Shown one piece after another: positions 8,214 through 54,200 of a stretch of DNA of 56,808 nt (its first letter is position 1; every line of letters begins with the position of its first letter). Source of the stretch: Ophryocystis elektroscirrha (Eukaryota > Apicomplexa > Conoidasida > Neogregarinorida > Ophryocystidae); contig JAQIFP010000035.1 of assembly GCA_030141585.1 (NCBI GenBank), forward strand, positions 1-56,808, in the 5' to 3' direction. The position numbers and the translations under genes were made by a program. The notes under the pieces are model-generated. The model saw nothing but the letters and a program-made list of their open reading frames with translations, ran no database searches and had not been told where the DNA came from.

Positions 8214-11200
8214 CTACGAATTAGCTAAAGTATGCTTTATAAAAATATATATAAAATCAATATATGAAGGGTCTCGATGATATACAACTTTAAGTAGGAG
8301 TAAATTGCGAGTAGCTATAGCGATAGCAGCAGGTATCACTGGTATATTTAAATATAAAAATAAGCAGCAAATATAATTTAATTTACGAGTTAAATGCACT
8401 ACACTAATGGAGTCGATTAACTTTAAATCTAAGCAATCATCTTTCATTGAATTTAGTAAAATTTTATGCCATACCATATATATAGGTGAGTTTTTTTCTG
8501 AATTGATTACGGTTGTTTTATTCGGAAAAAACTTTTTATAGTGAAATGAACTAGCTTGATTTCCAGTAACGGACTTTAAATTAATGTCATCTCTGGACTT
8601 GTATTTTGTGAGCATTGTTTTATTAAGATTCAGTTGTGGTGAGGAAGACCTATAATTTTTTTTTAGATTATTTAATAAATCTAAAATTTTAATGCATTCC
8701 AAATCATAAAATTCAATATAATTTGTTGCAAATTGTGCTGAAAACGATGCGATTATCTGACTGAACAATAAATAATCATTTTTTTTCGAATTTAATTTGG
8801 ATCTTAAATTTTCTGAATGCGGGAGTAGCCATTTGTCTAACTCTAATTGTAAAAAATCTCGCAAATATATTAATTTGATCCAGTTAAACTCCATCACTAT
8901 TTCTACCAAATGATTAGAAAATTGATCAACTAATATTTTATATAATTTTTTTTTTTCTTGATTAATATTTCCAGCATCCATTGAATAAACAACATCTAAT
9001 TGAGGTTTTTGTATTAATTGTAAATTATCTTTTATGGGTATTTTATTTGTTACAGTATATATTGATAAATAAAAGTTTAAGAGATTTTTTAACAATTCAT
9101 AGTTTCCGTATTCCATGCATTTATTTATTAATTTTAATACGTAATTTTGCCTAACAACAACATCCCCAAATATATTTTGTAATACTAATAGGAAGTGCGA
9201 AGCTATGTTTAAATAGTTATAATTAACACAATCATAAAATATATCTTCAGCAGATATTGGCGATAAGGCTAAAATTAATAATGGGCTAGATAAAGGCTCA
9301 AATTTCCGCATTGCAACAATCAAAGATTCATTTAAGCATTCTACGCAGTTTTCTTGTATCAAAAAAAGCACTTCTGTTAATTGCATACAACACTGTAATT
9401 TTGTAGTTAAAGTGTAAATAAAACTGTATATAGAAACATTATTTGCGCTTAGATTTGACATTTGATTTTTATAATTTTGATTTATGTAGACCATTATTGC
9501 CTTATTTTTTCTCATTATTTTTTTTTTATAATCAATATCATCTAATTCTTTTTGCCAGATTTTTCTTAGAACGTTAACTTTTCTAATATGGGGTTTTGAT
9601 TCTTCATTAACAGATGTAGAATGTTTCAGAATTTCTTCATTCGAATTATCCTCTATTTCATTTTTTAAAGTATCATTCGATTTCAAGCATTCTAATTCCA
9701 AAATTTTTTTTTTTCTTTTTTCTTCAGGTAGTATTTTTGTGGCAATAATTCCCTGTTTATTTTTTTTTCCTAAATCTCCTTCGCGTGCTTGAAACTCATT
9801 ATACCTAGGAATCAACGTCTCCTCTCTTCTAACTGTTAATAAATTTGGTTTTTTCAAGGATGCTATTTCGGGAGTTGGTTTTTTTAAAAAAGTTTCTTTT
9901 CGAATATCTTTTTTTTCGTCTCTCCCAACAGTTAATTTTTTATATTTTCTTGGAGTAACTTTATCGGGTTTTTTCAAAGTCGATTTTTCAGTAATTACTT
10001 TTTCGTCAATCTTTGGAACTAAGCTATTTTCTCTTTTCACTGAGCTTGAAAATAGAACATTCTTTTTCTTGAGTTTTGGGACTTTTTTTTCAACAAAACA
10101 CTTTTCTTGCAAATTTTCGGGATGACCTGGTTTTTCAAGAATCAATTTACTTTTAATGGGAAGTTTTCCCAATTTCTTTAAACTTCCTTTCACTGTAAAA
10201 TTTGATTTTTTGAAACTGTTTCCTTCATTTCGAATTTCGTCTTTTGATTTACTTTTATTCAATTTTCTTTTACTAATGCTTTTTTTTATTTTATAAACTT
10301 TTCCAATAACCTCTTTAATATCTCTTTTTCCTTTCATATAATTAGCATTATCTTCAATATTTTGCATTTCTTTGGATATTTTTTTTCCTTTATCTTCTTT
10401 TGCTTCTTTTTTCCCTTTTTCTTTCATTAATTTTTCTTTCTTCTCTTTTTCTTTCATTAATTTTTCTCCTTTCTCTTTTTCTTTTTTTTTTACGATTTCT
10501 ACTTTTTCTTTATTTTCTCTTTCTTGTTTTTCTTTTTCTTTTTTCTCTGTTTCTTCTTTTTTTTCATTCTCTTTTTCTTCTTTTTTTTCTTTCTCTTTTT
10601 CTTCTTTGTCTTTTTCTTCTTTGTCTTTTTCTTCTTTGTCTTTTTCTTCTTTGTCTTTTTCTTCTTTGTCTTTTTCTTCTTTGTCTTTTTCTTCTTTCTT
10701 TTTTTCTTCTTTCTCTTTTTCTTCTTTCTTTTTTTCTTCTTTCTCTTTTTCTTCTTTCTTTTTTTCTTCTTTCTCTTTTTCTTCTTTCTTTTTTTCTTCT
10801 TTCTCTTTTTCTTCTTTCTTTTTTTCTTCTTTTTCCTTTTCTTCTTTGTCTTTTTCTTCTTTGTCTTTTTCTTCTTTATTTTTTTCTTCTTTCTCAATTT
10901 CTTCTTTCTCATTTTCTTCTTTTTCTTTTTCTTTTTTTTCTTTTTCTATCTCTTCATTGTGCTTTTCTTCATTATCTTTTAAAGCTAAAGAAATTTCACT
11001 CTTCAAATCCAGATTAAATTTACTATTATTTTTTGACTTCTTGTAAATTTGATTGAATAAAGGTATTAAGTAGTTAATTTTTTTGTTATTTTCAGCGTAA
11101 AATGTTTCGGGCATTTCTAATTTGTGGATATGAGGATGCGTTTTGAGCAGTTTGAGAAATTCAGGATATGCGTTGGTTAATAATTTGTACAGTAATTTAT

Positions 11201-14200
11201 CAAAAATTGCATATCTGTACGGAGAACTTTCAAATTCCGTTATTAAACAAGTAAGCAAATATTTGCTGTATAAGAAATTAATTAATATATTATGTCCTAT
11301 CACATACACATGATAACGGATATGATAATAGTTGCCTAAGTGAGACATGTCTGTTTTAAATATTGAGATCGGATCAATAAAAACTCCTGAAAGTATTCCA
11401 AACTAAAAAAAAAAAAATAAAAAATAAAAAGTTTCTCACAGGCAAATTTATATCTAATAATATGAACTGTTTCTTTTTATGATTTTCTGTTAAATCCAAT
11501 ACTTCAACAGTTGAAAAAAAAAATTTGTTGTTTTGATCACATATTAGTACCAAAACGACAGTGTTTTTAGAAGTTTCACACCATATATAATAACCAAGCT
11601 TATAATTAGCGTCCTATATACTGTTCGTAAAAGTTTAAGAAAATTACTTTTGACCAGTAGAAAGAGCGAAACTGGTATTGGCTTCCTATCCAAACATTTT
11701 TCACATTGCTTAGAAAACGCTTTTCTTTGTAGCAATAATTCTCTAAACCTTGGTGTTGCTCTATAAAATCATACATAAATATTTGTTTCATTACCAGAAA
11801 AGTTTAACTGTTTTTTATAAATAGGTTCCAACCGCTGAGATCCCATCAATCTATTTTCAACGTTTTCCGATACTGCATAGTATTTATAATTAAATATATA
11901 CATGTATACAACTATTATTATAAATAATGACACTAGTATGCATTTTTTTTCTATTGTTAATATACTTTATTATCATTCACTACTTTGCTATATAATTCAT
12001 AATTTATATTATTACAATAATAATAATATATATACATATATATATATAATTGTAGTATTGAAAATTAGTTTTGAAAACATTATATTCAAATAGTTCTAGC
12101 AAATAGTTATCAAATATTATTTATTGGTTATAAACAATACTTTGATGTACATCAAAGTGTTAATCTAGCAAACAATTTACATGATTTTCTCCTTTTGTAA
12201 ATATTATGGTAATAGATCCTTAAAGCAGAAAGGCTTTGCGTTACATGGTGTACAATTATATTATGGGGACTTCCAAAAAAATGTAGGGACAAAGGATGCT
12301 CAATCCAATTACAGCTACTTAGATCAACTTTCCATAAAGGCTGAATGGTCCAAATAAAACTATTAACTCTGGTATTAATGCGTTCTCCAACTTTAAAAGT
12401 AACTTTGTGGGGCGGACACAAGCGGTAGCCACATAGAGTAAAACTACAATCGTAAATAGCTAAGATAGGAGTATCGGAAAAAGAATCTGGTGCGTATTTG
12501 GAGGTTGTATGTGGAAGTTCTCTGGAATCTACAGCATTTCCGCATGGACGACAAGGGTCGTGTAAATTGAGTTTATTTATCAGATGATTAGTCATATTTG
12601 GTTTTTTTAAACTAGGGGGAGTATATGTAAATCTATCACTTGTATTATAGACAAACAAATGAATTGGTTTGTGAATAAGATTTATAGAATCTGCTGAAAG
12701 ATTTTCACTGTCAAATGAACGGCTTGTGTCTATAAAATAAAGTGTGTGGTTTATTTGGTTTGTTTCTGTTTTCAATTCTTTGATTACGTCCTACATTTAT
12801 AAACATCTTTAATTTAGAGAGTAAATATAAAATTATTTATACATTGTTTACATAAAAATTATTTTTAATAAAATAAACATTTGAGTAATTTTGCATATCT
12901 ATTAATGTGACTATATTGATACAAATCATATATATATATATATATATATATAAGTTAAGTTATTTAAAATACCTTGAAAGGTTGAGATAGATATTTATGA
13001 TACTCTTTATTTTCATCAGCATCATCATAAGATTTATCCAATAATTGTAATGTGACACAAAGCATAGTATTTGTGTACCATGTTACTGGCAAACATCCAA
13101 CGCAAAACTTGTCTTGAGCTTTAAAATATTGCCATTCTTCTGTCCTCAAACTATAAAGTGCAATTCCGGATTGAGAAGTTACCAAAATATTTTCGTATCT
13201 TGCATTAGCCGTTGCTATTCTAATAGGCCAGTCAAGGCTTTTAGTAAACATATTTTGAGGAAAAGAGACTTTAATGAAATCATACGACTTACAGTTCCAA
13301 GAATTGGGACTCAACAGTAATAAATCTTCTGCGCCAATGAATACTCTACAATAATTTAGAACAAAAATGTCTGATTTTTAAATTTGAAAAGTAAATAAGT
13401 ACGGATTTTTACAATACAAGTTCTTATTTACAAACTATATGTTACTCTGTGATGCTTATCAATAAAAAAATTATTATAAATAGACATAGAACTAGGAGTT
13501 TCTGTAATAATTATTCAAAATTACTTCTTTTAAAATCAATGTAGTGCCACAATCAAATAAGTCTATTTTAGAGTATTTATTTATTTAAAAGTGCGCAAAA
13601 TTGAATCGTTCTATATTTTTGTGTATCTGTTTTTATCTACAAGTATATGCTTAAACTTCTTGAATTCAAATTATAAATGATAACTACAATAATAATTTAC
13701 TTTGTCGAATAATGGCCAAAAGGAGCTCCAAAAGTAGCTGTTGTACCACCACGAACAACTGAATCTCTATAATATGGAATAGTTATCAGGTTTTTATTGC
13801 TAGAGAGTATTGCTAACTGCAAATCCATACAAATCCATTCTAAACTGCATATGTCTTTAGAATTAGCACCCTCTTTTTTACTTTGCAAAATAGATTTACC
13901 TAAAAATGATATATAAATTTACTCACATTATATTTTCACATAAAATATACAAACGTAACTAAAATTAGTATAATTTTGGCATTTAGCAAATATTTTATAG
14001 TTTTTGATAACTCTAGTTTCGAGTTTGTTAAACAAAAATAATTTTGAAAAATTTGTTTAAAAATAACATGAATACTTTTACCGGCATAATCATAAACTTC
14101 AAAATCTTTATTGTAACGAACTGCAACCACTTCGCCATCTAAAGACCAATGAAGGGATAGAGGGACATTATTTAAGTTAATATTGATGTAGGGGGATTTA

Positions 14201-15390
14201 ATTTGGTCAACTTGCAGTAATTCCAAAGTATCTTGGTTACTCAATAAAGCAATCATTCTTCGAGAACGGTTAAATGCAAGCTGTGTAACAAAAGAATTAC
14301 TGAGTCGCAAACCTATCGATTTAGTATAAAGCCAACTTGTCTCATAAAACATGTCTTTGAAAGGACTAGACCATGCCAATACTACTGCTAAACCTGATCT
14401 AAATACTACTCCTAGTAATCCCAGTGATTCATTCAACTCAATTAACTTGACTCCTGTATCTCTAAGTAGCAGAGGTTCCCATTTTTCGTGCGAAGAATCG
14501 TATTTAATAAAAGGTTCTGATTCTATATCTTTATTTCTATTGTAAGAGTACACGTCATTAAGCATTAGCTTTCCTTCATCTGAAGCGTTCTGGAGTTGTA
14601 AGTGAGATTGCACAAAAGTAGCGTTGGTATTGGATACAGAGATTTTGTTAGTGCGATCAATTAGAGCAAAGTAATCAAAATCCACTATTCCATCCAATTC
14701 AGAGAAATCAGAAATGTGTGTAGATAAGACATAATTCATATTAGCACATCCAAAGAGAATATGATTACAACTTACAGCCAATGATGAAATAGGAAAAGGG
14801 AATGTTAAAACAGAATCAAATCTAATGGAAACTTTATTAAATGCTTTTTCTTCCATAAATAACATATCACTTGTCAATTCTTCATCAAAAAAAAATGATG
14901 CTTTAGTTTTTGTTGGTGATAACATTGGTGGCTTTTCTTTATTGTAATTTATTATGGAGCTATCCAATGATGCCATTGCCTTCTTCCCAACATATACCAC
15001 TCTACATGGAAGTGATTTAGTTCTTGTTTTTATACGGCTAAACTCGTACTCTTCATTTTCCATATACAATCCTTCGCCGGATGTTTTTCGTTGTATGTGG
15101 GTAATACAATAAGTAATAATAGTGTCATCAAGCTTGGTATGGGCATATAAATATTTTGAGTTGTAATCCCAATATGCTTTGTTAGCATGTGCTGGATAAT
15201 CAGGGGGTCTTTCATAATAACCAAGTTTATGCAAGTAAGGAGTACTACTATAAATATAAATAGAATAGTCACATAATATTGCAGTAAATTTACCACATAA
15301 AGATGTTTTGATGTAAAAGAAATCACTATTTAAATCTTTCTCATTAATAATGTTTTTATAACTTGATGCAAACCCAGTGCTTAAAGCCAT
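8214..15390 (-). CDS. RIC1: RIC1 homologue (RAB6/Ypt6 GEF subunit) with a large Lys/Glu-rich insertion
   Basis: Eight exons join in phase to 2009 residues: 14082-15390, 13701-13899, 12973-13345, 12181-12790, 11795-11872, 11648-11760, 11440-11598 and 8214-11402. The N-terminal half has beta-propeller-like blocks characteristic of RIC1, such as YIYSSTPYLHKLGYYERP and SLDWPIRIATANARYENILV. The C-terminal RIC1 solenoid is recognisable in AEDIFYDCVNYNYLNIASHF and the following FLLVLQNIF. RIC1 acts with RGP1 as exchange factor for Golgi RAB6. About 450 residues, starting near 1090, interrupt the solenoid. They begin with a pure KEE/KDKEE/KEKEE tract and continue as basic low-complexity sequence, where human RIC1 has only a short loop. 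No RGP1 is seen in the window. Confidence 0.9.
10376..10975 (-). repeat. Coding tandem repeat (15-bp and 30-bp units) in RIC1
   Basis: On the minus strand this stretch encodes a run of EEKDK pentads (about 10605-10690) and EEKEKEEKKK decads (about 10690-10830), flanked by less regular Lys/Glu sequence. Units are multiples of three, so frame is kept. The opposite strand shows long Phe/Ser frames that are only the complement of this repeat. Confidence 0.9.
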
Positions 15391-37102: not shown

Positions 37103-39721
37103 ATGAATACCGAAGTAATGAAAACCCCAGATCAAATAGAATTAGACAGAGTAATCGAATTATGTCAAGAAGGGCAAAAAAAACTTGCAAAATATTCCCA
37201 GGAAGAAATAGACAAAATTTTTAAGCACTGTGCCTTAGTTGCTACAAATCACCGATTTGAATTAGCAAAAATGGCATGTGAAGAAGCCGGTATGGGATCC
37301 ATAGAGGACAAAGTTATAAAGAACCACTACGCATCAGAAATAATTTATGATTCCTATAAAGATATGAAAACATGTGGTATTGTTGAAAGAGACGAAGAAG
37401 GAGGATATTCTGTTTATGCAGAACCAGTCGGATTACTTGCTGGTATTGTTCCATGTACAAATCCAACATCTACAACAATATTCAAAATATTATTAGCAAT
37501 AAAAACCCGTAATGCCATTATTTTTTCTCCACATCCAAGAACGGTTAAATGTACCATATACACGGCAAAATTATTAGCGGACGCCGCAAAGGAAGCGGGA
37601 GCTCCCGATAATATAATTGGCTACATAGAAAATGTTTCGATTGATCTGTGTAAATATTTGATGAAGCACCCTGCTATTAATCTAATCGTAGCAACAGGAG
37701 CTGGAGGTTTGGTAAAAGCTGCTTATTCCTCAGGAAAACCTTGCGCTGGAGGAGGTTCTGGAAACACACCAGCTATTATCGATGAAACTGCTGATATTCC
37801 TATGGCAGTTAACTCTATTTTACAATCAAAAACGTTCGATAATGGAATGATTTGTGCTTCAGAGCAATCAGCTATTACTGTCAAATCTACTAGTGATTGT
37901 GTACGAAAAGAATTTATAAAAAGGGGAGCTTTTTTTGTGGAATCAGAAGCAGATAAAAAGAGACTTAGTGAAATATTATTCACTAAAGAATATACATTGA
38001 ACCCCATAGCCGTAGGAAAATCTGCTGAAGAATTAGCAAAAATGGCAAATATTTCGGTACCAAAAGGCACTCGTGTACTGGTTGTTAATATCCAAAGTAT
38101 AGGACCAGAGGAACCGTTCTCCAGAGAAAAATTATGCCCTGTTTTGGGATTTTTGGAGAAGGATTCTTTCGAGTCAGCTCTCGAAGCTGCCCACACCTTA
38201 GTACAGTTTGGAGGAATGGGTCATACTTCATGTTTATATACAGATTTGAAGGGAGAAAAAAAATCTGAAAGAGTTGCAAAATATGAGGCAACAATGCCTG
38301 CAGGACGTACATTAATTTGTATGCCTACTTCTCATGGAGGTATAGGTAGACTCTACAATCCAAATCAAGTTCCGTCTCTATCATTAGGATGCGGTTCTTG
38401 GGGAGGAAATAGTTCCGCTGAAGGGCTTCAACCAAAACACCTATTAAATTATAAGCAAATAGCAGAACGTAGAAATCCATCCATGTCATATATGCAACCT
38501 ACGGAAATTAAATTTGGACCCAAAATACTAGAAAGTTGCTTCCAACAATTACAGAATTTACAAAATATTAGTAATGTCGCCATAATCTATGAAAAAACTG
38601 GCCATTCTTACAGTGATAAATTGCTTGAACATGTCAAAAGTTTACTATCACAAAATAAATTGGAATACACCGTATATACTAATTTCTCTAAACCTTTGAC
38701 TATTAATGATATTAAAAAAGCTGCAAAAAGTATTGCAGAATATAAAGCAGACATGATTGTTGCTCTTGGAGACTCCACTGCTATTGAATGTTCAAAAGTT
38801 GTTCGATCTTTAGTAGAGGAACCGGTTCAAGATTTAAATCAATTAAGCACACCATTCATGTCAATAGGCACTAAAATAGAGAAGTTTAAAAGAACAAATA
38901 AAGTATATTTAATAACAATACCAGTAACGTCTGGTTCTGGTGCAGAAATGACTCCATTTGCTTTTGCAGTATGTCCCGAGAAAAAAAGATCCTACACATT
39001 CTGCGATCAAGCATTATTTAGTGAAATGTCAATAGTTGACTATTCATTAATAGCAAATACGCCTCCTGAAATAGTAGCTTTATCTGGATATGAAGCTTTA
39101 GTAAATGCACTAGAAAGCTACGTAGCTCTAAATGCTACGCAATATACGCGAACCCAATCATACGAGGCCTTTGAATTATTGGCCAAAAATTTGCTCCCAG
39201 CATACAAAGACCCTTCAAATACTTCTGCTAGAGGCTATTTACACCGTGCAGCCAGTTTAACTGGATTAGCCATAGGAAACACTTTCTACGGTTTATGCGA
39301 AGCTATGGCTCAACAAATTGTAGCAAATTATAACGTAGATATCAGACTTGTTAAAGCTTCTATAATACCAAGTATAATTCAATATAATGCCACCGAAGCT
39401 CCTACTAAATTAGGAACCAGTCCTGTTTATGAAAAACCCAAAGCTTTAGAGCAATATGCTGAAATTGCATACAAATTTAAGCTTGCTGGAGAAAGAGCTA
39501 CTTTAGAGGAAGCCACAGAGGCTCTTATTCAATATATTAAGAAACTCAAATCTGATTTAGGCTTACCTTGCGCTTTTATTAATATAGACATGGCCAAGTA
39601 CAGAAAAGATATTGATGACTTAGCTATCAAAACTTTCGATTCACAATACGCTTTTACGTGTCCTAGATACCCAATGATTGATGAACTTAAACAAATATTT
39701 AAAAAATATATCCTTAATTAA
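37103..39721 (+). CDS. adhE: AdhE-type bifunctional enzyme: intact acetaldehyde dehydrogenase, degenerate alcohol dehydrogenase half
   Basis: A single uninterrupted exon of 872 residues, the full family length. The N-terminal half is CoA-acylating acetaldehyde dehydrogenase: GIVPCTNPTSTTIFK, NAIIFSPHPRTVK, YSSGKPCAGGGSGNTPAIID and the nucleophile C251 in FDNGMICASEQS. It should reduce acetyl-CoA to acetaldehyde with NADH. The C-terminal half aligns with iron-dependent ADH, but the four residues that bind iron in E. coli AdhE (D653, H657, H723, H737) read E664, N668, E733 and I747, and the GGGS nucleotide loop is LGDS (555-558). TSGSGAEMTPF and PRYPMIDELKQIF show the fold is kept. Alcohol dehydrogenase activity is therefore doubtful. 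The intronless structure fits lateral acquisition. Confidence 0.95.
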   Translation: MNTEVMKTPDQIELDRVIELCQEGQKKLAKYSQEEIDKIFKHCALVATNHRFELAKMACEEAGMGSIEDKVIKNHYASEIIYDSYKDMKTCGIVERDEEGGYSVYAEPVGLLAGIVPCTNPTSTTIFKILLAIKTRNAIIFSPHPRTVKCTIYTAKLLADAAKEAGAPDNIIGYIENVSIDLCKYLMKHPAINLIVATGAGGLVKAAYSSGKPCAGGGSGNTPAIIDETADIPMAVNSILQSKTFDNGMICASEQSAITVKSTSDCVRKEFIKRGAFFVESEADKKRLSEILFTKEYTLNPIAVGKSAEELAKMANISVPKGTRVLVVNIQSIGPEEPFSREKLCPVLGFLEKDSFESALEAAHTLVQFGGMGHTSCLYTDLKGEKKSERVAKYEATMPAGRTLICMPTSHGGIGRLYNPNQVPSLSLGCGSWGGNSSAEGLQPKHLLNYKQIAERRNPSMSYMQPTEIKFGPKILESCFQQLQNLQNISNVAIIYEKTGHSYSDKLLEHVKSLLSQNKLEYTVYTNFSKPLTINDIKKAAKSIAEYKADMIVALGDSTAIECSKVVRSLVEEPVQDLNQLSTPFMSIGTKIEKFKRTNKVYLITIPVTSGSGAEMTPFAFAVCPEKKRSYTFCDQALFSEMSIVDYSLIANTPPEIVALSGYEALVNALESYVALNATQYTRTQSYEAFELLAKNLLPAYKDPSNTSARGYLHRAASLTGLAIGNTFYGLCEAMAQQIVANYNVDIRLVKASIIPSIIQYNATEAPTKLGTSPVYEKPKALEQYAEIAYKFKLAGERATLEEATEALIQYIKKLKSDLGLPCAFINIDMAKYRKDIDDLAIKTFDSQYAFTCPRYPMIDELKQIFKKYILN

Positions 39722-51293: not shown

Positions 51294-54200
51294 TTAAACA
51301 CTTGAAGCGACGCGTTTAACGGAAGCGTCTCCTTTTTCTTCAAGAATACCTCTTTTAATTAATATGGATAAGGCTCTTACAATGAATATTTGCTCAAAGC
51401 CTTTCATTTTAAGCTCACTTATTATTGAATATTTACTAGCTCTTGTATTAACAGGAAGTCGTTGCAAAATAGCTGTTTCGGCTAATCGAACTTTTTCTTT
51501 TTCGGAACTCGACAGAGTTTCTCGAGTTAATGTTGACTTTGCTGCCTCTAAGGTAGCTAAATTAAATAGGTGCATGGCTTCTTCTACGTGAGTAGGACTC
51601 ACATATCTTGAAAGAGTCATGCGCGCCAAAGATTCAGATATTCGCGATAAAGATTCTAGTTGACGAATTGTAATTGGTATTTGATCTCGAGCTTTTCTCG
51701 AATCTCCTCTCATAGCCTCACGTATCTAATTTAAAAGTTTCATGAAAATTTAAATATATATATATATATAAATATATGTAAACTTTGCTATATACCAGCT
51801 TATTTAAAAAACAAGAAAATTACCTCGACGTAGTAATTTTCGAGCTTTTTGGCAGCCTCTGGAGACAATACGGGATTACAAGAGGAACGGCAATAGTTGA
51901 TATACTCACGTAACTTTTCACCAGAAATAGGTCCTTCAGCAGTTGACAAATCTGCCATTCCAGTGTGTAAGTGTAGCACGTGTTTGGCAACTGTTAAATC
52001 TCTCTCGACATCCTTAATATCACGAACAATCCATATTAAGTCAAACCTAATAAAAAGAATAACTCCATATCACATAAAGATACAAAAATTATTGTTTTAT
52101 TAATAATTTATACCTCATTTTCATTTAATACTCTAATGATGCCCAATATATTTAAGTCTTACATATTAAACATATATATTAATTTCTTCTGTAGATAAAT
52201 ATATATATAAATGTATATATAAATATATATATAAATATATATAAATATATATATAAATATATGTATACATATATATATAAATATATATATAAATATATAT
52301 ATAAATATATATATAATTATATATTTAAATAAATATATAAATATATATGAATATATATTTATATATTTATTAAATCTATTATAATTTATATAGATGAATA
52401 ATAATATAAATTTGTATATAAATATATATACGTATATGTTTATTAGATAAACAAGTATTATATTCGATTAATATTACATATATGTTGAGTTATATCAAAT
52501 GTAATGTCATTTTGAATAGATAAATTTAAATAAAAAATTAATGTATATACCAAAAGATAAATTACCTGGACAATATAGTGGTTTCGAAATCATGTTGGTC
52601 TGTAGTTTCCTTTGAATCGTCATAAGAACCAAAACTTGGATTTGCGGCTGCCAAGACACTACAGCGTGTAGTAAGAATTGTAGTGATTCCTGCTTTGGCT
52701 ATAGAAATAGTTTGTTGCTCCATGGCTTCATGAATCGAAACTCGATCGTCGTCTCTCATTTTATCAAACTCGTCAATACAGACGACACCTCCATCTGCTA
52801 ATACCATAGCTCCTCCTTCTAGAGCGAAATTGCCATTAGAGTCTCTCAAAACGGCGGCAGTTAATCCAGCAGCACTTGAACCTTTACCAGATGTGTAAAT
52901 AGCTATAGGCGCTGTTTTTTCGACAAATTTAAGAAATTGACTTTTAGCCGTAGAAGGGTCTCCTAAAAGTAATATGTTTATGTCCCCTCTTAACTTCGAG
53001 CCGTCTGTTAAGACTTTACGAGAACCACCAAACAATAAACACGCTATAGATTTTTTTATGTCTTCCGAACCGAATATAGCAGGTGCTATAGATTTGACAA
53101 TTTTATCTATTATTTGTGGATCTTGAGCCATCTGTTGGAATTCCTTGATATTTTGAAAATTGGTTGGAATCAAAGCTTTTCTGGGACCGGTTCTATCAAG
53201 GTATTCAAGTCCCAAAACATGTATATACGATATACTAGGAGTATTTTGTTTAGATAGTATTTCTTGAGATTTATGTATAGTAGAATAAACTCCTATTACC
53301 AATATACGTTCCCCAGGCAAAACACGTCCACACAGTATATTAGCAGCGTTTAATAAAATAGTTTTAGGCATATCTCCAGTGGGAACATGCTCTGGCAATT
53401 CTTGTAATTTGATTTGCTGTACATCGCAATACTCAGACTCATCCGATAAAATAACAAATGAATCCGGAGAACATTTTTCTTCATTATTTTGCCTATTTTG
53501 TCCTTTAGACAAACAATATTTGGGAATATCTATTTGCTGTTTCCATAAAGGTACTGAAACTGTTATTTCTGATTCGCACTGTTTACATTTCATGCGCATT
53601 CTGATAGCTTTATGCACTGGTTTATATGCTTGCAATACTATTCCAGGCACTATTACTAAACTCTCTACTAAAAAAGCATTTAACTCCCGTATAGGCGTAG
53701 GTAAACGATGGGATATTATTTCTAACTGAAATAATCTTAGATGTTTTACTAATGGCTCCATATATTCAAAAGATGTCTCTTCTTTGTTAACCGAAACACT
53801 GTCATTCATGTTTGCATTCGACATATCGGGATTAAATTGATACGTAATTTTACAGTATTGCACAAATTCATTTCTTTCTTTATTAGATAATCCCTCTAAA
53901 TATAATTCGCGAATAACTTGTTCTCCCACGCTAATAGCTCTAAGAGGGTGTTTTTGGAAACAGTTTAATAATAGTTCTCGCCAATTGTCTAAATTATTGT
54001 TCTCACTTCCCTATAAAGCAAGAGAATTATAAAGATTTTTTTTTTTTTCTTTTTTTTTATACTTTTTTTTTTGCACATACTTCAAACATACCAACATCAG
54101 AGTTCTGAGAAGATTTTTTGATCTCCGTAATCCAATGTGGCATATTAAAATGCTCAATATTCAATTGAATTGAAGAAGCATTTCTACGTTGCGATAAATT

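Follow-up and report, generated by a model that had tools for sequence, protein, structure and literature searches.

Results

An AdhE-type gene with a degenerate alcohol dehydrogenase half

The DNA analysed here, 56,808 nucleotides of contig JAQIFP010000035.1 and referred to throughout as the window, encodes on its forward strand an AdhE-type protein in which a CoA-acylating aldehyde dehydrogenase (ALDH) half is followed by an iron-type alcohol dehydrogenase (ADH) half whose metal ligands have been replaced. An original prediction, made from the sequence itself, described a full-length gene without stop or frameshift; to judge from its open frame, it is indeed not a simple pseudogene. The gene and the parts of it that matter here are as follows.

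37103..39721, + strand: AdhE-type gene, a single unbroken frame from ATG to TAA (872 amino acids plus stop)
37103..38446, + strand: CoA-acylating ALDH half, residues 1-448 (Pfam Aldedh; 2 of 89 invariant residues changed)
37853..37855, + strand: codon of Cys251, the catalytic cysteine of the ALDH half (a cysteine in every one of the 120 homologues listed)
38447..38482, + strand: linker between the halves, residues 449-460, equivalent to E. coli 440-451 and kept without a gap
38483..39718, + strand: degenerate iron-type ADH half, residues 461-872 (Pfam Fe-ADH, ADH_Fe_C; family fold in the prediction)
38768..38779, + strand: former GGGS NAD loop (E. coli 544-547), now G556-D557-S558-T559 (GGGS in 120 of 120 listed homologues)
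39092..39094, + strand: lost metal ligand, D653 to E664 (this and the next three by HMMER alignment to E. coli AdhE)
39104..39106, + strand: lost metal ligand, H657 to N668
39143..39145, + strand: aromatic residue kept at the ADH-ADH filament contact, Y681 for E. coli F670 (Tyr in 7 of 7 alveolate rows)
39299..39301, + strand: lost metal ligand, H723 to E733
39341..39343, + strand: lost metal ligand, H737 to I747

The protein has the domain order of AdhE, a full-length fusion matched by Pfam Aldedh, Fe-ADH and ADH_Fe_C that aligns end to end with E. coli AdhE, and on its sequence it is an AdhE by descent. It is 42-47% identical to the alveolate AdhE proteins found and about 44% identical or less to most other listed AdhE. 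A predicted model of its structure likewise aligns over its whole length with AdhE chains of known structure, at 39-40% identity to the full-length ones, and this whole-chain comparison revealed no register shift. Misalignment or frameshift as the source of the changes, which the original prediction had already argued against, was rejected on the strength of the one clean frame and the end-to-end alignments of both sequence and fold. A second AdhE elsewhere was also rejected: in the genome searched (8,008,172 bases in 118 contigs), the protein itself matched only its own gene, and the one Fe-ADH match and the one Aldedh match both fell at 37103-39721.

The ADH half has lost its metal site and most of its NAD site

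Residues were mapped one by one through a HMMER alignment to E. coli AdhE (PDB chain 6tqh), using the metal- and NAD-binding residues given in the available text of PMC7470043. None of the four metal ligands is retained, and the replacements are the ones originally read by eye, E664, N668, E733 and I747. The accompanying claim that ligand spacing is kept holds for the close pairs, still 4 and 14 residues apart, and fails for H657-H723, where 66 residues in E. coli compare with 65 in the window protein, a one-residue gap. H727 is also replaced, by Q737. The nucleotide loop, first noted as altered to LGDS, maps as G-D-S-T, and four of the five published NAD contacts in the ADH half are changed (D487 to E, G546 to S, S547 to T, T597 to V), L638 being the one retained. 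The four ligand columns are invariant in a chosen set of 55 references (52 listed homologues picked by hand, mostly taken as bacterial, plus three intact alveolate proteins), against which change in the two halves was also gauged. Over residues 456-872, 46 of 85 residues invariant in the references are altered; the raw tally of 48 of 87 includes two columns gapped in all references. By sequence, metal- and NAD-dependent dehydrogenase activity is very likely lost from the ADH half.

The ALDH half is a different matter. Its catalytic Cys, Glu and His are all present (C251, E342 and H374), at what we take to be E. coli positions 246, 335 and 367, and over residues 1-455 only 2 of 89 reference-invariant residues are altered. 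This half looks intact, as the original prediction had it. The NCBIfam model for acetylating aldehyde dehydrogenase, TIGR02518, gives the window protein 483.6 bits against a cut-off of 620.1, and six alveolate relatives also score below it (382.5-455.3).

Similar losses in gregarine-type relatives

These six relatives (P0002, P0003, P0004, P0005, P0008 and P0037) rank first in a profile search that listed 120 of 7,996 scored proteins. In the initial homologue search, 117 of the 120 proteins listed have all four ligands, and the three exceptions are gregarine-type proteins that each lack three of the four: P0003 and P0037, both environmental, and P0004 from Ancora sagittata. Their residues at the four sites are Q/H/G/L, G/N/S/H and L/H/E/W, respectively. 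The tables available from PMC10304595 give GHVO accessions as Ancora sagittata, GHVN as Selenidium, GHVP as Polyrhabdina and GHVT as Eleutheroschizon. P0008 (Lankesteria metandrocarpae), P0005 and P0002 (Vitrella) keep all four ligands and GGGS. Thus the suggestion that related species be checked for the same loss was borne out. P0003, P0004 and P0037 retain GGGS despite their lost ligands, so that loss of the metal may have preceded loss of the NAD site.

The other three degenerate proteins have 13-22 of the 85 invariant ADH residues changed and 2-4 of 80-89 in the ALDH half; of 90 ADH residues invariant in the 52 hand-picked homologues, the intact proteins keep 86, 86 and 87, and the window protein 41. 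Against the NCBIfam equivalog for bifunctional AdhE, NF010378, the window protein scores 911.6 bits, under the curated cut-off of 951, with the intact P0002, P0008 and P0005 at 1169-1220 and the degenerate P0003, P0037 and P0004 at 1056-1157, all above it. The best single-domain Fe-ADH model, lactaldehyde reductase, gives 150 bits for the window protein, 212-233 for its three degenerate relatives and 291-329 for the three intact ones. Pfam Fe-ADH and ADH_Fe_C nonetheless match the degenerate half above cut-off.

Might the half still bind metal through E664, E733 and N668, and be active? Glu and Asn are generally known to bind metals in other proteins, but here an isoleucine (I747) stands at the fourth ligand and an arginine (R748) in place of the glycine after it, and the NAD loop and contacts have gone too. 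Further, other residues fill the lost sites of the relatives (Q, G, L, S and W, and, once each, N and E), which leaves no conserved alternative set of ligands. We find this explanation scarcely credible.

In a tree of the ALDH half, the seven alveolate proteins split from 11 other rows with support of 100/100, and relations among the seven are mostly not resolved. The best tree requires at least three changes in ligand state; holding the four degenerate proteins together is not rejected (approximately unbiased test, p 0.188). The ligands may have been lost once or several times. No close relative suited to an analysis of dN/dS was found.

It is conceivable that the ADH half has gained a new positive role beyond that of a passive scaffold, such as regulation through ligand sensing or the docking of partner enzymes. 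In keeping with this, the half has been retained in four gregarine-type proteins with lost metal ligands, and three of the four keep GGGS, which is compatible with NAD(H) sensing. The window protein, however, has lost the NAD loop too, along with four of the five NAD contacts, and at the six reference-invariant ADH columns where all four proteins have changed, the replacements are mixed and share no clear new motif. We regard such a role as rather improbable.

Rapid change under apparent constraint

Under the LG+G4 model, the terminal branch of the window protein is 2.35 for the ADH half and 0.57 for the ALDH half. The ratio of the two is 4.1, compared to 1.4-2.1 in the other degenerate proteins and 0.5-1.1 in the intact ones, and it is model-dependent: a mixture model, run on the ALDH half only, lengthens that branch to 0.88. 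Together with the 46 changed invariant residues, the long ADH branch is what would be expected if the gene, or its ADH half, were heading for loss under selection relaxed in this lineage, the half having no present use. Several features of the half speak against this. Its 417 codons contain no stop, which has a probability of 1.6e-14 for an unconstrained, saturated sequence of the same composition, a figure with which recent relaxation is still compatible. Core-type positions are hydrophobic in 79 of 88 cases, and the degenerate halves of P0003 and P0037 are still 62% identical to each other. We consider ongoing decay decidedly improbable.

The ADH half is predicted to adopt the family fold. 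The ADH-ADH filament contact is defined in the accessible part of PMC6778083, and the corresponding E. coli pocket, I460/F462/F670/I712, is retained as I469/F471/Y681/L722 in the window protein. As for the linker, deletion of residues 446-449 of E. coli AdhE abolishes filament formation, according to the available text of PMC7080775. Tests of metal-site enrichment among the relatives are partly circular, the proteins having been chosen for ligand loss, and we do not rely on them.

Enzymes around acetaldehyde in the genome

Profile searches of the genome recover exon-split genes, as an AMP-binding case shows. Two further genes bear on the AdhE. Contig C71 encodes a thiamine pyrophosphate (TPP) enzyme of the pyruvate decarboxylase (PDC) type, 537 amino acids long and with all three Pfam TPP domains. 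It scores nearly equally against keto-acid, isovalerate and yeast pyruvate decarboxylases (325, 321 and 317 bits), and among NCBIfam models it comes closest to indolepyruvate decarboxylase, though far under the cut-off. It shows what we take to be the catalytic residues of yeast PDC: the Asp of GVPGD, the Glu of NELNA, the HH pair and the Glu of NNDGYSIE. The other gene, on contig C117, encodes a zinc ADH of 350 amino acids, the separate alcohol dehydrogenase that it had been proposed to look for. Its best structure match is the alcohol dehydrogenase 1rjw, its best NCBIfam model is AdhP, below cut-off, and it carries the Cys/His motifs that we presume to be those of its family. Because the adjoining gene has an inner-membrane-complex (IMCp) domain, the contig can be taken as alveolate.

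The remaining five ADH_N matches fall within very long frames (2,957 to 6,586 amino acids) on contigs C42 and C86, which are probably fatty-acid or polyketide synthases, those on C42 likely of type I. On C42, frames of 2,957 and 6,586 amino acids with ADH_N domains run uninterrupted, with AMP-binding matches nearby. The AMP-binding matches on contigs C61 and C78 resemble, by eye, long-chain acyl-CoA ligases.

Among the acetyl-CoA sources searched for, none was found: the POR_N and full PFOR models (PFO/PNO), 2-oxoacid dehydrogenase E2 and the AMP-forming acetyl-CoA synthetase AcsA had no match in the genome, and ADP-forming acetyl-CoA synthetase, pyruvate formate lyase, ATP-citrate lyase and citrate synthase were not searched for. 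The sole Transket_pyr match and a weak E1_dh match share one frame of 682 amino acids, which reads as a transketolase.

These genes also bear on whether the ALDH half still runs in the classical direction, reducing acetyl-CoA to acetaldehyde, with the zinc ADH making ethanol and a redundant ADH half left to decay. A separate zinc ADH is there to do so, and the intact ALDH half could in principle run either way. On the other hand, the PDC-type enzyme could supply acetaldehyde at no cost in acetyl-CoA, no acetyl-CoA source turned up among PFOR/PNO, E2 and AcsA, and free acetaldehyde would, as is generally known, be toxic. This explanation seems unlikely to us, if worth keeping in view.

The host and the rest of the window

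Bacterial contamination was rejected: the neighbouring genes on the contig are eukaryotic, with hexokinase and MCM5 domains that are divided between separate frames, an adaptin, a cyclophilin and an EF-G-type C-terminus. The AdhE gene's third-position GC of 0.23, in a window of 26% GC, also argues against it. In a 22-row tree of MCM5, whose first frame in the window is 52562-53929 (- strand), the window sequence falls in a 13-row clade (SH-aLRT 99) with five other rows and seven named gregarines; inside it, the window groups with four rows (95), apart from the named gregarines. From this one gene, "gregarine-type" is a safe label for the host.

Elsewhere in the window, a frame of 1044 amino acids without a Pfam match (8214-11348, - strand) contains a 36-copy array of 15 bp at 10404-10947 that encodes Lys/Glu-rich repeats. 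Near the contig start, at 1033-1471, is a 23-copy tandem array of 19 bp (TTAAGACCCTTTTATCTAT), the core of which has no exact match in the 25 loci examined. A RIC1-like fragment at 12964-15390 (- strand), which matches the second beta-propeller of that protein with a Pfam score under the cut-off, adjoins a 484-amino-acid frame without a Pfam match.

Discussion

We propose a model where the ADH half, having lost its metal site and most of its NAD site, would no longer reduce acetaldehyde, and the ALDH half would act alone as an acetylating aldehyde dehydrogenase. The PDC-type enzyme, whose substrate we infer to be pyruvate, would supply acetaldehyde in the cytosol; the ALDH half would oxidise it with NAD+ and CoA to acetyl-CoA, and the separate zinc ADH would reduce what remained to ethanol. 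An active, channelled ADH half would drain acetaldehyde to ethanol, a drain that its loss would remove. The inactive half would be retained because the ALDH half depends on its contacts in the dimer and the filament. Given that a PDC-type enzyme is present and no acetyl-CoA source was found, forming acetyl-CoA would be the most straightforward task for an acetylating ALDH on its own. We tentatively prefer this model, ADH half as scaffold included, and would give it almost an even chance of being right.

Published work on filaments bears on the scaffold in two ways. Breaking the spirosome impaired only the acetyl-CoA-reducing direction of the ALDH, as described in the available portion of PMC6778083, which by analogy suggests that the oxidative direction tolerates erosion of the ADH half. 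In PMC7080775, to the extent of its accessible text, the activity of a filament-less mutant fell from 0.112 to 0.035 mmol per min and mg, and the ALDH is argued to need the filament. Since about two thirds of the activity was lost there, the ALDH may need assembly and, by the same analogy, the inactive half may still matter. The two results are not wholly concordant.

Several points weigh against our model. The direction of flux rests on the presence and absence of genes in an assembly that may be incomplete, with ADP-forming acetyl-CoA synthetase, pyruvate formate lyase and ATP-citrate lyase lying outside the acetyl-CoA sources searched, and the decarboxylase scores equally well with branched-chain and indolepyruvate decarboxylases. 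The alignment behind the fold prediction consisted mostly of intact AdhE proteins, and the prediction is weak in the loops between domains and near the catalytic Cys. Hydrophobic residues occupy 32 of 179 normally polar ADH positions in the window protein, compared to 14-22 in its degenerate relatives, and the contrast between assembly and catalytic positions is weak (p 0.02-0.10 for fully invariant columns, 0.10-0.45 at a looser threshold). Finally, erosion has reached loops 2 and 3 and some of the linker; as the ADH half is also changing much faster than in relatives, the scaffold may be weakening.

The original interpretation is thus partly supported. Of the roles it offered, acetyl-CoA formation would best fit the genome searches, and use of the ADH half for spirosome assembly is compatible with that. 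In a broader context, it is tempting to speculate that some gregarine-type apicomplexans make acetyl-CoA mainly via PDC and then an acetylating ALDH, built by killing the alcohol half of AdhE and keeping that half as a filament scaffold, a route that would stand in for PDH, BCKDH, PNO and acetyl-CoA synthetase. This extension is possible, if doubtful. Engineered yeast reportedly has a counterpart of such a shortcut through PDC and acetylating ALDH.

If true, the route would help to explain gregarines without a known pyruvate-using enzyme. According to the available text of PMC8051059, archigregarines, blastogregarines and Actinocephaloidea keep BCKDH, and the other three eugregarine lineages use PNO for acetyl-CoA; no pyruvate-metabolising enzyme, PNO included, could be identified in Gregarina niphandrodes, and the authors suspect an incomplete genome. 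A PDC-type enzyme paired with an AdhE of inactive ADH half offers another testable answer for genomes of this kind. Since several related proteins lost catalysis by point changes yet kept the domain, the catalytic and structural roles of the AdhE alcohol half appear separable. There is also a practical consequence: Pfam, for the window protein, and the NCBIfam AdhE model, for three relatives, would misname these proteins as active alcohol dehydrogenases. In the open-access literature searched, nothing was found on an AdhE with an inactive alcohol dehydrogenase domain, on a gregarine aldehyde-alcohol dehydrogenase, on a pyruvate decarboxylase of Gregarina niphandrodes or on the assembly of gregarine genomes.

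Set beside characterised AdhE (E. coli 6ahc and 6tqh, C. thermocellum 8uhw), the window protein differs in that its ADH half is without the four metal ligands, H727 and the NAD loop. A monofunctional acetylating aldehyde dehydrogenase (5j78; TIGR02518) catalyses the reaction proposed here and is 43% identical to the ALDH half by structural alignment, but has no attached ADH domain. BdhE (9ldl; available text of PMC12454647), a convergent ALDH-ADH fusion, shares the two-domain order; at 18-20% identity in structural alignments, as against 39-40% for full-length AdhE, it is no closer to the window protein. The nearest precedents are the ALDH-only adhE of lactobacilli and the low-ADH AdhE of Polytomella. 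In the Lactobacillaceae fragments, as treated in the accessible sections of PMC11269746, ADH function was likewise lost first and the ALDH half kept, and they are argued to remove acetaldehyde; there the ADH domain is absent and residues of the ALDH-ADH interface drift, whereas the window protein retains the domain. Polytomella AdhE, in the same sections, is eukaryotic too, with very low ADH activity and an ALDH that favours acetyl-CoA formation. Two adhE genes are reported for Polytomella, and ADHE of P. parva lacks an essential tyrosine (PMC12924338, available portion); loss of metal ligands is not mentioned in the available portions of PMC11269746 and PMC12924338.

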